Assembly: GCA_009773355.1 (NCBI GenBank)
Contig: WRPG01000054.1
Span: forward strand, 1 to 36,005
Direction: 5' to 3'
DNA length: 36,005 nucleotides
Source: Limisphaerales bacterium
GTDB lineage: Bacteria > Verrucomicrobiota > Verrucomicrobiia > Limisphaerales > SXTU01
The position numbers and the translations under genes were made by a program. The first letter of the stretch is position 1. The number at the start of each line of letters is the position of its first letter. Positions 3,991 to 30,986 of the stretch are shown here, piece after piece. Below the pieces are notes generated by a model. It worked only from the letters and a program-made list of their open reading frames with translations. It did no database searches and was not told the origin of the DNA.

Positions 3991-4367
3991 TCTCCAGAAT
4001 TTTTGGCTCGGCGGACGGTGCCACAGGTTCCGTCCAAAACCAACCTCCCTTTGCTGTGCGGTGAACATTTATTGGCACACTTCCGCCCCCTGCCGGACGG
4101 CTCTGGCGGGACCACCGGGACGCGGCGGCTGAAGTTCATGGAGAGCAGCCACGGCCCGATCACCCGCAGTTCCGGCCCTAAAGCCGTGCCGGCGATTTGC
4201 AATCGCCGGCACAGGTTCAGGGCGAATTTCCCCTCCCATTTTCCTGCCCTCAATCTGCCTGCCCAAATTCCGTGGCAATGCCCGGTGGACCCCACGCCCC
4301 CGCGCTGACGGCGTTTGGCATTGCGCTTCTCCCGTCCGGCTGGCAGCAACTCCGCCAGCAGCACACC
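3991..4367. other. Divergent intergenic spacer with one palindromic repeat
   Basis: These 377 bases separate the kinase (-) from the amino-acid permease (+). I see no convincing gene. The only clear structure is the hairpin at 4186-4212, listed separately. Both flanking genes must be transcribed from here or from the adjacent coding ends, but I could not identify a good -35/-10 pair. Confidence 0.6.
4186..4212. repeat. Palindromic repeat, single hairpin of the gtgccggcgatttgc family
   Basis: A perfect 12-bp stem (gtgccggcgatt at 4186-4197, aatcgccggcac at 4201-4212) with a 3-nt loop. Nearly the same sequence forms both arms of the larger element at 22456-22563, so this looks like a solo half-copy of a dispersed repeat rather than a gene-specific terminator. 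Confidence 0.75.
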
Positions 4368-21000: not shown

Positions 21001-22602
21001 GAGTTGGGGGTCGGCGCTGGAGCAGCGCGTGAGCTGGGCGATGAGCTGCGGGATGGCGTCGCGCCAACTGTCGGCGAGAGCGGATTTGATTTGGGCTTTC
21101 AGCGCGAGGAGTTCGATGCGGTTCTTATTCAGCACGTCGGGCGAGTCCACTTGCACCTGCGCAGGGCGGCTGCTGGCGAGCACGCCGTAGAGCGCGTAGT
21201 AATCGCGCTGGCTGACGGGGTCGAACTTGTGGTCGTGGCAGCGCGCGCACGCGATGGTCAGGCCCTGAAAGGCTTTGCCGAGCACGTCAATCTGGTTCTC
21301 GACGGACTTCACCTGGTCGTCGAGCGTGTCCACGGGCTGGAAGCCGTGCTCAACGAGGCGGAAGTGCGCGGGACCGAGGCGGGATTCGTTGAGGGAATCG
21401 GTTTTGTTCCAACGCGTCTGTGCCGGCGGGAGCAGGTCGCCGGCGATGTGTTCGCGGATGAGTTGGTCGGCCGGCACGTCGGCGGCGAAGGCGCGGATGA
21501 CGTAGTCGCGGTAGCGCCAGGCTTGCGGGATTTCGGGGTCGCCCTCGGAGCCGTGCGTCTCGGCGTAGCGCACGAGGTCGAGCCAGTGCCGCGCCCAGCG
21601 CTCGGCGAAGGCGGGTGAGGCGAGGAGCGAGTCCACGGCACGGGTGATGGCGCGCTGCTCACTTTCACGCCTGCTCACTTTCTCACCCGCTCCGCCAGCA
21701 GGTGAGAAAGTGGGAGAGTGAGAAAGTGAGAATTCTCGCACGAACGCTTCCATGTCCTCGGCACGTGGCGGCAGGCCGGTGAGGGCGAAGGTGAGGCGGC
21801 GGATGAAGGTGCGCGGATCCGCATCCGCGCCGGGCGCGAGGCCGTGCTGTTCCAGCTTCGCAAGCAGGAAGCGGTCAAGCGCGTTCGTGCTCCACGCGGC
21901 GTTTTTTGGCGTGGGCACGGCGGGCTGCGTGAGCGGCTGGAAGCTCCACCATTGTCGGCGGAACGCGAGGGTGTCGGCCCAAGCGGACGAGGAGGACTGA
22001 GACAACGAAGTGGCCGGGCCAGTGCGCGGGTCGGGCGCGCCCTGGCGAATCCACTCGGCGAAATTCGCGAGGATGCGGGCGTCGAGTTTCGCGCCGTTCT
22101 TGGGCATCTTGAGCTTCGGATGCGTGTGCCGGAGCGCCTGGAGCAGCAGGCTGGAATCGGGCTGGCCGGGCACGAGGGCCGGGCCGGACTCGCCGCCTTT
22201 GAGCAAGCCATCGCGCGTGTCGAGAGCGAGGCCGCCCTTCTTCTTCGCGGAGGAATGGCACTCGTAGCACTCAGCGGCGAGCACGGGGCGGATGTGCTTC
22301 TCGAAGAACTCGATTTGGGCGGGCGTGGGCGCAGCGGCGGTGGCGTCCGAACCGGGCAGCGCGGAAACCAACACCAGCAAGGCGACAAGGCGGAACGCAG
22401 AGGCGCAGAGGACGCGGAGAGGCGCGGAGAGAGGAGGAAAATGGGCGAGACGCCGTGGCCCGTGCCGGCGGTTTGCAACCGCCGTCTGCGGGCTGGAGCA
22501 GGACGAAGCGCCTTCGGCTTGCCCACGCGCAACGCGGCGATTGCAAATCGCCGGCACGGGCCAACGCGCGGGCTGCCCCTGCTGGCGCACAAGAAAGTTC
22601 AT
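18082..22602 (-). CDS. PSD1-type protein: PSCyt1 cytochrome, DUF1549, LamG, DUF1553, with five in-frame repeat insertions
   Basis: A giant exported protein (1506 residues from the ATG at 22602). Domains in order: signal-like core [13 protein letters not shown] (about 72-84); PSCyt1 cytochrome c with CYECH at 112-116; DUF1549/PSCyt2, split, with [13 protein letters not shown] and [11 protein letters not shown] near 452; LamG/concanavalin-like domain (about 590-770, with [15 protein letters not shown]); and C-terminal DUF1553 (about 1215-1490, with [20 protein letters not shown]). Palindromic repeats lie at five places in the frame without breaking it, adding peptides between or at the edges of domains. 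These make it longer than its relatives. The start is uncertain: no initiation codon lies between the GTG at residue 16 and the hydrophobic core, leaving an unusually long N-region. It begins 13 bp after the RbsC-like gene and overlaps DUF1501 by 11 bp. The function of the family is unknown. Confidence 0.92.
18905..18999. repeat. In-frame palindromic element with perfect 24-bp inverted repeats
   Basis: The arms 18905-18928 (starts gtaggagacgacgtgagg) and 18976-18999 are perfect 24-bp inverted repeats around a 47-nt centre rich in tctggg. It lies inside the PSD1-type gene (about residues 1201-1232), just before [16 protein letters not shown], where DUF1553 normally begins, and is translated as a linker rich in Ser, Thr, Pro and Gln. 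Confidence 0.85.
19783..19847. repeat. In-frame palindromic element with perfect 22-bp inverted repeats
   Basis: The arms 19783-19804 (starts ggagcgcaggtgtccaac) and 19826-19847 are perfect 22-bp inverted repeats with a 21-nt loop, inside the PSD1-type gene (about residues 918-940). It is translated as [20 protein letters not shown] or close to it, with no stop codon. Confidence 0.85.
20850..20913. repeat. Two in-frame hairpins preceding the LamG domain
   Basis: The first hairpin has an 8-bp stem (cggcgact/agtcgccg, 20850-20868). The second has a 10-bp stem (ggcggcggct/agccgccgcc, 20891-20913) with loop gga. Both are translated within the PSD1-type gene (about residues 563-584), giving the peptides [10 protein letters not shown] and RRLEVAGTP, immediately upstream of the LamG segment. 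Confidence 0.75.
21655..21730. repeat. In-frame ctcactttc/gagaaagtg repeat cluster
   Basis: Two copies of ctgctcactttc (from 21655 and 21671) face two copies of a gagaaagtg motif (from 21704 and 21720). The perfect 13-bp pair is 21675-21687 with 21718-21730. It lies within the DUF1549 part of the PSD1-type gene (about residues 290-315) and encodes a Ser/Glu/Arg-rich peptide in place of the short loop normally found there. Confidence 0.75.
22456..22563. repeat. 108-bp palindromic element overlapping the 5' end of the PSD1-type gene
   Basis: The left arm 22456-22484 and right arm 22535-22563 are inverted repeats over 29 bp with two differences. The differences compensate within each arm, so both local hairpins stay perfect (cggcggtt/aaccgccg on the left; cggcgatt/aatcgccg on the right). 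The arm sequence matches the solo hairpin at 4186-4212. Read on the minus strand it encodes VPAICNRR near the predicted N-terminus. Confidence 0.85.
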
Positions 22603-25299: not shown

Positions 25300-25624
25300 A
25301 GATGGTGGGAAATGGGAGACAGGAAATGGGTGATGGGGAAGTGGGTTTTGTGCGGCGCAGTGCTTGAGCCAGTGCGCCGTTGGGGTTCGCCGTTGTCGAG
25401 GGATGGCGGGCAAGATTGACCCTTCTCATTAGCACCCGGCTTCAGCCGGGTGTCCGCGTCACGCGAGGGCGGAAACCGTTTCAACGGTTTCCGTTTCGGG
25501 GCACACGCATGCCAAGGGAGCAAGCCGTTGAAACGACTCGCGCCGTCCGCGCCTCGAACACCCGGCTGAAGCCGGGTGCTAATGAGAGGGGCGATCAGGG
25601 CTGTCGCGTTCATCGGTCGTGCGC
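25300..25624. other. Intra-operon spacer occupied by repeats
   Basis: These 325 bases lie between the shikimate-dehydrogenase family gene and the mutarotase-like gene. The part near 25300-25350 is made of gggaaatggg/gatgggg-type short repeats, and 25425-25586 is the large palindromic element listed separately. I see no gene here. Confidence 0.7.
25425..25586. repeat. 162-bp palindromic element, family A copy 1
   Basis: The terminal inverted repeats are perfect over 29 bp (25425-25453 with 25558-25586), beginning ctcattagcacccggc on the left and ending gccgggtgctaatgag on the right. Each terminus contains its own hairpin (cacccggctt/agccgggtg type). The centre holds a further 10-bp-stem hairpin (ggaaaccgtt/aacggtttcc, 25471-25492). 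A second copy lies at 30837-30986. No ORF of its own; a MITE- or REP/BIME-like element is the natural comparison. Confidence 0.9.
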
Positions 25625-28608: not shown

Positions 28609-30465
28609 TTGCCTGTGACCAAAACCAAACCGTCCCGATTTCTTCACTGCGCCGCCGCGCTCGTGCTCGCGTTCGCTTCGCACACGAATGCTGGGCAGCC
28701 TGAGGCAGCCAAGCCGTCGAGCGACACGATTGACTGGAACAAGGAGCGGCAATTCTGGTCGTTCAAGCCTCCGCAGGCGCAGGCGCGTCCGCTGGTGAAG
28801 AACGCGAAGTGGGCGCGGCAGCCTGTGGATTACTTCATCCTCGCGCGGCTGGAGCTGAAGAAACTTTCGCCCTCGGCCGAGGCGGAGCGACGGACGTTGA
28901 TTCGTCGGCTCACGCTCGACTTGACCGGTCTGCCGCCGACGCCGGAGGGGGTCGCGGCGTTCGTGGCGGACAAGCGCGCGGATGCCTACGAGCAGCTCGT
29001 GGAGCGGTTGCTGGCCTCGCCGCGCTTCGGCGAGCGCATGGCGAGCGTGTGGCTGCCGCTGGCTCGTTATGCGGAAGACCAGGCACATCAGGTGGGCAAT
29101 GACTCGACGATGTTTTACGCTAACGCGTTCCTCTATCGCGAGTGGGTGATGGGTGCATTCAACCGCGACCTGCCTTACGACCAGTTCATCCGTTTCCAGC
29201 TTGCGGCGGACAAGTTCCCGGCTGCGAAGCCAGAGGACTTGGCCGCGCTCGGCTTCCTCGGACTCGGGCCGAAGTATTACAATCGCGGGCGCATCGAGGT
29301 GATGGCGGACGAGTGGGAAGACCGCGTGGACACCGTCACGCGCGCGACGCTCGGCCTCACCGTCGCGTGCGCACGCTGCCACGACCACAAGTTCGAGCCA
29401 ATCACCCAGCGCGACTACTACGCGCTGGCCGGGGTCTTCGCGAGCGTGAAGATGGTCAACAAAACGGCCGACGGCAAAACCGTCGAGGGCAAGGTGCAGG
29501 CCGACAAGATGCCCGCCGACGCGGTCCACATGGTCGAGGAGGGCACGTCGCAGAACCTGAGCATCTTCCTGCGCGGCAACCCGGAACAGCAGGGCGCGGT
29601 GGCCGAGCGCAGTTTCCTGAAAGTGCTATCCACCGGTGAGCCAAAGCCCTTCGCCGACGGCAGCGGTCGCCGCGAACTCGCCGAGGCCATCGCGAGCCGC
29701 GACAACCCGCTCACCGCTCGCGTGCTGGTGAACCGCGTCTGGGGCGTGCTCTTCAGCAAGCCGCTCGTGGCCACGCCCAGCAACTTCGGCCACTCCGGCA
29801 TGACGCCCACGCACCCGGAGCTGCTCGACGACCTCGCGGTGCGCTTCATGTCGGGCGGCTGGTCCGTGAAGTCGCTCGTGCGCGAGCTGGTGCTCTCGGC
29901 GACGTATCGCCAGACTTCGCGCGACGACGTGAAGAAGTCCGCCGCCGACGTGGCGAATGAATCGCTCTGGCACATGAACCGCCGTCGGCTCTCCATCGAG
30001 CAATGGCGCGACAGCGTGTTGGCGGTGACGGGCGAGCTGGACTTGGCCGGCGGCAAGTCGCTCGAACTCGACGACGCGAAGAACCTGCGCCGCACGGTCC
30101 ACGCGCGCGTGAGCCGGCTGAAGCTGAACGACCTGCTGATGCAGTTCGACTATCCGGACGCGAACGTCCACGCCGAGAAGCGCTCCGCCACGACCACGCC
30201 GACGCAGAAGCTTTTCATGTTGAACAGCCCCTTCATGCTGGAGCGCGCGAAGGCGCTGGCCGAGCGCGTGACGACCGACGCGAGCGAGTCCGACGCCGCC
30301 AGCATCCAGCGCGCGTATCAACTCCTCTACGGTCGCAGCCCTGAGAGCGCGGAGACTGCCGCTGCGCTGGCCTTCCTGCGCAAGCCCGCGACGGGCGAAG
30401 TCACGCGCTGGCAGCAATACGCGCAGGCGCTGCTGATGGCGAATGAGATGTTGTATGTGGACTAA
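28609..30465 (+). CDS. DUF1549/DUF1553 (PSD1-type) protein without the PSCyt1 domain
   Basis: A 618-residue exported protein. A signal-like N-terminus (FLHCAAALVLAFASHTNA) precedes DUF1549 with LIRRLTLDLTGLPPTPEGV, LLASPRFGERMASVWLPLARYAED and the heme-type motif [11 protein letters not shown], then DUF1553 with GSGRRELAEAIASRDNPLTARVLVNRVWG and the C-terminal MANEMLYVD. It lacks the N-terminal CxxCH PSCyt1 domain and the LamG module of its larger relative at 18082-22602. No suitable ATG exists: translation must start at TTG 28609 or, six bases on, GTG 28615 (GTG ACC AAA ACC). It heads a plus-strand run leading to a DUF1501 gene. Role unknown; a periplasmic location is expected. Confidence 0.92.
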   Translation: MPVTKTKPSRFLHCAAALVLAFASHTNAGQPEAAKPSSDTIDWNKERQFWSFKPPQAQARPLVKNAKWARQPVDYFILARLELKKLSPSAEAERRTLIRRLTLDLTGLPPTPEGVAAFVADKRADAYEQLVERLLASPRFGERMASVWLPLARYAEDQAHQVGNDSTMFYANAFLYREWVMGAFNRDLPYDQFIRFQLAADKFPAAKPEDLAALGFLGLGPKYYNRGRIEVMADEWEDRVDTVTRATLGLTVACARCHDHKFEPITQRDYYALAGVFASVKMVNKTADGKTVEGKVQADKMPADAVHMVEEGTSQNLSIFLRGNPEQQGAVAERSFLKVLSTGEPKPFADGSGRRELAEAIASRDNPLTARVLVNRVWGVLFSKPLVATPSNFGHSGMTPTHPELLDDLAVRFMSGGWSVKSLVRELVLSATYRQTSRDDVKKSAADVANESLWHMNRRRLSIEQWRDSVLAVTGELDLAGGKSLELDDAKNLRRTVHARVSRLKLNDLLMQFDYPDANVHAEKRSATTTPTQKLFMLNSPFMLERAKALAERVTTDASESDAASIQRAYQLLYGRSPESAETAAALAFLRKPATGEVTRWQQYAQALLMANEMLYVD

Positions 30466-30844
30466 CGGCCATTTGAAGAAGGTCGCCAGCGTATGGCTGC
30501 TGCTGTGGTGCTTCAGCCAGAGTCACGTGGCATTGGCATTTACCACAACCCGATTCACGACCGTTGATTGGACGGTGAGCATTCCAACCGGAAAGATTGG
30601 GCTAGACCAATCTTTCATCGTCACGGACGACCCAAGTGGGACGGATTCATGGGAGACGCGAGCGTTGTTTGGCCCTGTTGAACTGGCGTTGCCGTTCAAA
30701 CTCCCGTGGGCAGCAGCGCTGCTGCTCGCACTCGTTGTTGGGACCGCTTGCGTCGTTATTGTGATTCGCACCATGCTTTCGGGGCGAAGCCCGCTCAGTC
30801 AGTCCGCCGCTGGAAAAGAACATGACTCCGTCGCTTCTCATTAG
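30455..30844 (+). CDS. Small membrane protein of unknown function, 3' end inside a repeat
   Basis: A 129-residue protein from the ATG at 30455, which overlaps the end of the PSD1-type gene by 11 bp (an in-frame ATG at 30443 is also possible). It has an N-terminal hydrophobic segment (VASVWLLLWCFSQSHVALA), a polar domain of about 45 residues and a strong C-terminal TM helix (LPWAAALLLALVVGTACVVIVI). I do not recognise it. Its DNA is markedly less GC-rich than that of its neighbours. The stop codon TAG (30842-30844) lies inside the left terminus of the family A element, so the original C-terminus may have been altered by the insertion. Confidence 0.65.
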   Translation: MWTNGHLKKVASVWLLLWCFSQSHVALAFTTTRFTTVDWTVSIPTGKIGLDQSFIVTDDPSGTDSWETRALFGPVELALPFKLPWAAALLLALVVGTACVVIVIRTMLSGRSPLSQSAAGKEHDSVASH

Positions 30845-30986
30845 CACCGGGCTTCAGCCCGGTGTGCCCGTCGGCGAGGAGCCGAGCCGGTTCAACGGCT
30901 TGGCTCCGGCCTCCGGGCTGAAACCGTTGAAACGGTTTCACCCGCGCCCGTCGCCCCCCACCCGGCTGAAGCCGGGTGCTAATGAG
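30837..30986. repeat. 150-bp palindromic element, family A copy 2
   Basis: Same termini as the element at 25425-25586: ctcattagcacc at 30837 and ggtgctaatgag ending at 30986. The left hairpin is caccgggctt/agcccggtg, the right cacccggct/agccgggtg. Compared with copy 1, the left arm differs at two bases that pair with each other. Two internal hairpins (gccgagccg/cggcttggc with one mismatch, and aaaccgtt/aacggttt) sit where copy 1 has its ggaaaccgtt hairpin. The inverted match extends three further bases outward on each side. Confidence 0.9.

Follow-up and report, generated by a model that had tools for sequence, protein, structure and literature searches.

Four-hairpin elements in a Limisphaerales genome and their probable derivation from an IS200-like transposon

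Architecture of the two elements in the window

Our study describes a pair of short repeat elements in the window, the whole 36,005-nucleotide stretch that was analysed, which belongs to the 6.16-Mb draft of a Verrucomicrobia MAG from a Limisphaerales-type order. The copies are 162 bp and 150 bp long and lie where the first-pass annotation had placed them, with the inverted ends and hairpins that it described; each is an imperfect near-palindrome. Each half runs from a tag, TCTCATTAG, through an outer hairpin and a linker of about 19 nt to an inner hairpin, CCGTTTCAACGG, and the other half is the same, inverted; a central spacer separates the two inner hairpins around CCGTTTCAACGG in both copies. 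After the tag CTCATTAG, the outer hairpin of both copies follows the consensus CACC(C/G)GGCTTCAGCC(G/C)GGTG. The features are as follows.

25425 to 25586, no strand assigned: element copy 1, a four-hairpin element read as non-autonomous
25424 to 25432, plus strand: left tag of copy 1, TCTCATTAG, unpaired in the outer hairpin
25433 to 25452, plus strand: left outer hairpin of copy 1, CACCCGGCTTCAGCCGGGTG
25453 to 25471, plus strand: left linker of copy 1, constant in length (about 19 nt) and free in sequence
25472 to 25491, plus strand: left inner hairpin of copy 1, GAAACCGTTTCAACGGTTTC
25521 to 25540, minus strand: right inner hairpin of copy 1, CAAGCCGTTGAAACGACTCG
25559 to 25578, minus strand: right outer hairpin of copy 1
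25579 to 25587, minus strand: right tag of copy 1, CTAATGAGA
30837 to 30986, no strand assigned: element copy 2
30845 to 30864, plus strand: left outer hairpin of copy 2, CACCGGGCTTCAGCCCGGTG, in which a C-G pair of copy 1 has become G-C, a compensated change
30883 to 30902, plus strand: left inner hairpin of copy 2, CCGGTTCAACGG, with one pair broken (T to G)
30920 to 30939, minus strand: right inner hairpin of copy 2, GAAACCGTTGAAACGGTTTC
30959 to 30986, minus strand: right outer hairpin and tag of copy 2

A repeat search recovered the inverted ends as 44-nt arms that are 89% complementary (I6), together with a 31-nt repeat at 100% between the two copies (I7). Both copies fold far more stably than their dinucleotide shuffles: copy 1 reaches -122.1 kcal/mol against -65.9 +/- 4.8 kcal/mol (z -11.7), and copy 2 reaches -112.9 kcal/mol (z -10.7). 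When the two copies were aligned with each other and in reverse complement, the likeness lay in the hairpins and not in the linkers. The earlier statement that the differences between the copies are paired, so that every hairpin is kept, holds nearly: the stems covary, but in copy 2 one pair of the left inner hairpin is broken, a defect that the orthologues in three sister genomes do not share.

The tag of copy 2 (CTCATTAG) also provides the TAG stop codon of a small upstream ORF (30443-30844). Repeats that supply a stop codon to an upstream ORF have been reported for GTAG REPs.

Copies, stem covariation and orthologous sites

The terminal 28-mer, allowed up to three mismatches, matched 33 times in the host genome, while the reversed pattern used as a control gave no match. 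These matches comprise 16 two-ended elements of 113-162 bp and at least three half copies; the pair in the window is thus not alone in its genome (had it been, this would have spoken against the earlier proposal), and dispersal in multiple copies is a property of non-autonomous derivatives, or MITEs in the broad sense. The wider scan of related genomes that the first-pass annotation had proposed found the ends in 31 of 97 relatives of the order, in a patchy and lineage-specific distribution with up to 82 matches per genome, again with no match to the control.

The covariation analysis used 25 distinct end hairpin pairs from the host genome. Stem cells were paired in 95.6% of cases compared with 88.7 +/- 0.8% after shuffling (0/500), and the further copies therefore do preserve pairing, the point on which the earlier proposal of selection on structure could have failed. 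Six pairs changed on both sides, and there were 36 compensated cells against 12.1 in shuffles, counts that are inflated by kinship among the copies; the signal is lost when the partner is slid, and compensated changes at column pairs 13/24, 32/45 and 36/41 recur among copies with unrelated linkers. The conservation of the outer stems is partly a matter of ascertainment, because these stems served to find the copies; the inner stems did not. Linker length stays within 17-22 nt (mostly 18-19 nt), and linker identity is 34%, compared with 30% for shuffled letters.

Conserved stems could also reflect a role in the host, with the copies of this genome now acting as hairpins of transposon origin (attenuators, stabilizers of mRNA 3' ends or nucleoid sites) whose stems are kept by selection at each locus. 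The placement of the copies is in keeping with this, since all 16 lie between genes or nearly so, all but one being intergenic under a crude ORF model, and the neighbouring genes are co-directional at 13 of the 15 copies considered for orientation; the conservation of inner stems that played no part in finding the copies points the same way. However, none of these 15 copies lies between convergent genes, an absence of bias on which we rejected a terminator role; no Rfam 15 family matches the window at the gathering score; and selection at the level of transposition predicts equal conservation of the stems.

The window region is syntenic within the genus, which allows the two sites to be followed between species. 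At the copy-1 site, the intergenic DNA on the aroE side is about 30-70 bp long and the element is absent in four congeners (G004, G005, G008 and G010), while the site is filled by a GTAG-type REPIN in G002, by repeats like CGGTTTGCAACCGCCG in G003 and by another inverted repeat in G009. G007 has an orthologue of copy 2 with the same linkers, and G002 and G004 each have a left half; none was found at the syntenic site in G005, G008, G009 or G010. In a second genus (g37), a site that holds the element in one species carries a different hairpin repeat in the other. Different repeats thus occupy syntenic positions, so several palindromic families make repeated use of intergenic sites; the retention of copy 2 at one intergenic place in several congeners indicates that some copies are old and static. 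An exact empty site was obtained in neither genus: neighbouring intergenic DNA had changed too, and in g37 the orthologous places were occupied by other palindromic repeats. The persistence of copy 2 in sister species despite different flanks, and the filling of syntenic sites by different palindromic repeats, are what a host function might also produce, but presence and absence at orthologous sites mean that the host has no need of the element there, and we consider a present-day host function unlikely.

Other palindromic families are found alongside the elements. One, GTGCCGGCGATTTGCAATCGCCGGCAC, lies at 4186-4212 of the window, with a diverged inverted pair at 22451-22568, and similar repeats sit at the copy-1 site in the sister genome G003. 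At the host locus of one of the half copies (L010, G000:C98:51849 onward), the four-hairpin element breaks off after its left half, and a GTAG-tagged REPIN (GTAGCTCGACATTCCAATGTCGAG ... inverted) stands where the right half would be; the same REPIN type occupies the copy-1 site in G002.

Transposase genes between the same ends

We searched 13 end-rich genomes for Y1_Tnp genes and then scanned the surroundings of each gene for the ends. In one relative (G054:C163), a gene for a 150-aa Y1_Tnp protein lies exactly between CTCATTAGCACCCGGCTTCAGCCGGGTG...GGAAACCGTTTCAACGGTTTCC and its inverted counterpart, in a unit of about 610 bp whose left end is perfect and whose left and right ends each contain both hairpins. 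Gene-carrying units with these ends are also present in G089 and others; the versions in G027 and G032 have other stems, with the tag, loops and inner hairpin unchanged. The proteins of G054, G027 and G032 served as the profile for a wider transposase search, in which nearly all close relatives of the G054 transposase, from Verrucomicrobiota and Acidobacteriota, proved to lie in units of about 600-650 bp with double-hairpin inverted ends. A transposase flanked by the same ends, which the first-pass annotation had suggested looking for, therefore exists. The autonomous unit is laid out as tag (TCTCATTARC), outer hairpin, linker of about 19 nt, inner hairpin, gene and inverted end, and the short form is both ends joined without the gene; the sharing of ends with a coding element whose gene is missing is the relation of a non-autonomous derivative to its parent. 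The flanks of the close transposases hold 1.3-1.8 strong hairpins per 130 bp, compared with 0.07-0.12 in control stretches at the same loci, while more distant relatives (E about 1e-32 to 1e-38), which include the host's own Y1 gene, are flanked by hairpins of other sequences.

One genome (G267) contains two gene-carrying copies that are 94% identical over 627 bp and have unrelated immediate flanks, the similarity starting and stopping sharply at CTCATTAAC and GTTAATGAGAG; since these near-identical copies are bounded by the ends, the unit has moved. As the same hairpins flank the gene of a single-strand-DNA transposase in relatives, the elements in the window are most likely stripped-down passengers, and we conclude that the feature is very probably a non-autonomous transposable element, a REPIN-like MITE, that carries the ends of an IS200-like transposon.

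The outer stem types CCCCGC and CCCCAT change places between the two G267 loci (L247 and L248), a pattern that a swap of ends would give. Separately, a 677-bp transposon is 89% identical between a Limisphaerales contig and a Candidatus Solibacter contig (L121 and L149), which may reflect transfer between phyla or a mis-binned contig.

The 150-aa enzyme is homologous to the TnpA proteins of ISDra2 and IS608, with conserved HUH and single-tyrosine motifs, and YIxxQxxHH is present in 44 of 45 aligned relatives. It passes the NCBIfam model for IS200/IS605 (NF033573, 62.7 against a cut-off of 55) and fails that for REP-associated transposases (NF047646, 27.7 bits against a cut-off of 80); judged by these profiles, it is an IS200-like Y1 protein and not a RAYT proper. 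Its Y---Q--HH motif is the signature of TnpAY1 subclass 1.2, to which we provisionally assign it by signature and not by the model of the authors of that scheme. The overall design of the elements, with two inverted palindromic ends, a variable spacer and compensatory changes, is that of a REPIN (PMC3116915), and a classical REPIN mobilized by a true RAYT (TnpAREP) encoded elsewhere in the genome would account for it. This reading is disfavored and in our view highly improbable: the tag is TCATTAG and not GTAG, the transposase passes the IS200/IS605 cut-off and falls short of the RAYT one, Y---Q--HH stands in place of Y---NP (PMC6006769), and the transposase gene lies inside the ends as a unit.

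The earlier suggestion of a transposase acting in trans, such as a RAYT/Y1 protein or that of an IS with similar ends, is thus upheld as to the Y1 gene within the same ends, but the enzyme is not a RAYT and none that is cognate was found in the host. At E<=1e-30, neither the host assembly nor 10 congeners yielded a cognate transposase, a result to be read with the caveat that drafts may miss a gene; two congeners in this set carry about 49 and 65 end matches, and a further genome (G028) has 44 end matches and no Y1 gene at all. The only full Y1 transposase gene of the host (L031, G000:C114:8373-8795) was considered as the cognate enzyme and rejected, as its ends are another double hairpin (CCTGGGGCGTTGCCCCAGG outer), and five of the six copies of that end lie on the one contig, C114. 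Because no cognate transposase was seen in the host assembly, its copies may now be immobile; they are probably left over from a past burst or dependent on a missing or foreign enzyme.

Boundaries, mechanism and relation to known families

Among 52 copies from several genomes, the base immediately outside the tag CTCATTAG (position -1) is T at 101 of 104 ends, and C is favored less strongly at positions -2 to -5. This conserved C-T next to the tag matches the CT site at which TnpAREP is known to cleave, an analogy that is only suggestive. None of these 52 copies has a target-site duplication at k>=3, which agrees with the earlier remark that none was obvious. Long terminal inverted repeats, small size and the lack of coding capacity would suit a MITE of a DDE transposon; however, such elements duplicate their target, the ends here are covarying hairpins, and the gene found between identical ends encodes an HUH/Y1 enzyme, so that we give this origin next to no credence. 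In g37 (L174, L175, L176, L180 and L183; G089 and G046), the element sits within a longer palindrome that is itself conserved, GGGCGCATCTCAGTTTCTTGCAGCCGATTCCCCAT...GCAAGAAACTGAG. No empty copy of this outer palindrome (GGGCGCATCTCAGTTTCTTGCA..) was found there when it was considered as a target preference; it is either the target or an outer arm of the element.

The biochemistry of IS200/IS605 and TnpAREP (PMC8266576) suggests a model for the movement of the IS200-like unit and its passengers. A transposase dimer would bind the hairpins on single-stranded DNA, at the replication fork or on the lagging strand, with the tag helping to pick the nicking site; Y116 would then cut and join, and the ends together with the intervening DNA would move without target duplication. 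The hairpins would be retained because only elements recognized by the enzyme spread, and the linkers would drift in sequence because nothing but their length counts.

REPINs, TIRtrons and IS200 derivatives are known kinds of element (PMC3116915, PMC3733652, PMC3119063), and comparison with each highlights what differs here. REPINs and BIMEs with their RAYTs (Bertels and Rainey, 2011; PMC3116915) share inverted palindromic units that form a doublet, and thereby a larger hairpin, with compensatory changes, as well as conserved ends, a variable compensated spacer, an intergenic location and a Y1 HUH enzyme acting in trans. The elements described here differ in having two different hairpins per end, a TCATTAG tag (TCTCATTAG) where theirs is GTAG, and an enzyme on the IS200-like side of the tree with its gene inside the ends; movement as a unit is said not to occur in REPtrons (PMC6006769). 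TIRtrons, TIRYTs and TIR repeats (Di Nocera, 2013; PMC3733652) likewise place a Y1 transposase within inverted repeats, include some double palindromes and form dispersed families. The GGGGWSAS motif of most published TIRs is missing here, the ends beginning TCTCATTARC, and while published TIRYTs mostly belong to TnpAY1 subclass 2.1 with a C-terminal HTH (PMC6006769), our enzyme has the subclass 1.2 signature and no C-terminal HTH was seen in its 150 aa. IS200/IS605 elements and their PATE derivatives have an HUH/Y1 TnpA, subterminal hairpins, no target duplication and short gene-free derivatives, but lack terminal inverted repeats, whereas the ends here are inverted copies with two hairpins each (PMC3119063).

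The enzymes resemble TnpAY1 subclass 1.2 (Quentin, 2018; PMC6006769) in the Y---Q--HH signature and in being IS200-like, short and low in copy number. That subclass was described as generally without IS ends or IS properties and mostly from Cyanobacteria and Bacteroidetes (PMC6006769), in contrast to the elaborate ends and dispersed non-autonomous copies seen here in Verrucomicrobiota and Acidobacteriota. In the open-access literature we found neither this end design nor a report of it from this order, and no ends described for subclass 1.2.

These elements bear on the question of how REPs and REPINs arose and move. Bertels and Rainey proposed that REPs and REPINs descend from palindromes flanking an IS200-like element (PMC3116915), and the four-hairpin elements look like the link postulated between simple IS200-type jumping genes and the widespread REP/REPIN repeats. 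We offer tentatively, at a little under even confidence, the broader proposal that TnpAY1 subclass 1.2 represents a true lineage of transposons, with inverted ends of paired hairpins, which moves both as an autonomous unit of about 620 bp and as gene-free four-hairpin passengers, and would thus be a living example of the postulated intermediate between IS200-like elements and the REPIN/RAYT system. Within a single bacterial order, forms with and without the gene that share their inverted hairpin ends can be set side by side, and a protein subclass described as devoid of IS properties gains ends, passengers and a direct route to biochemistry.
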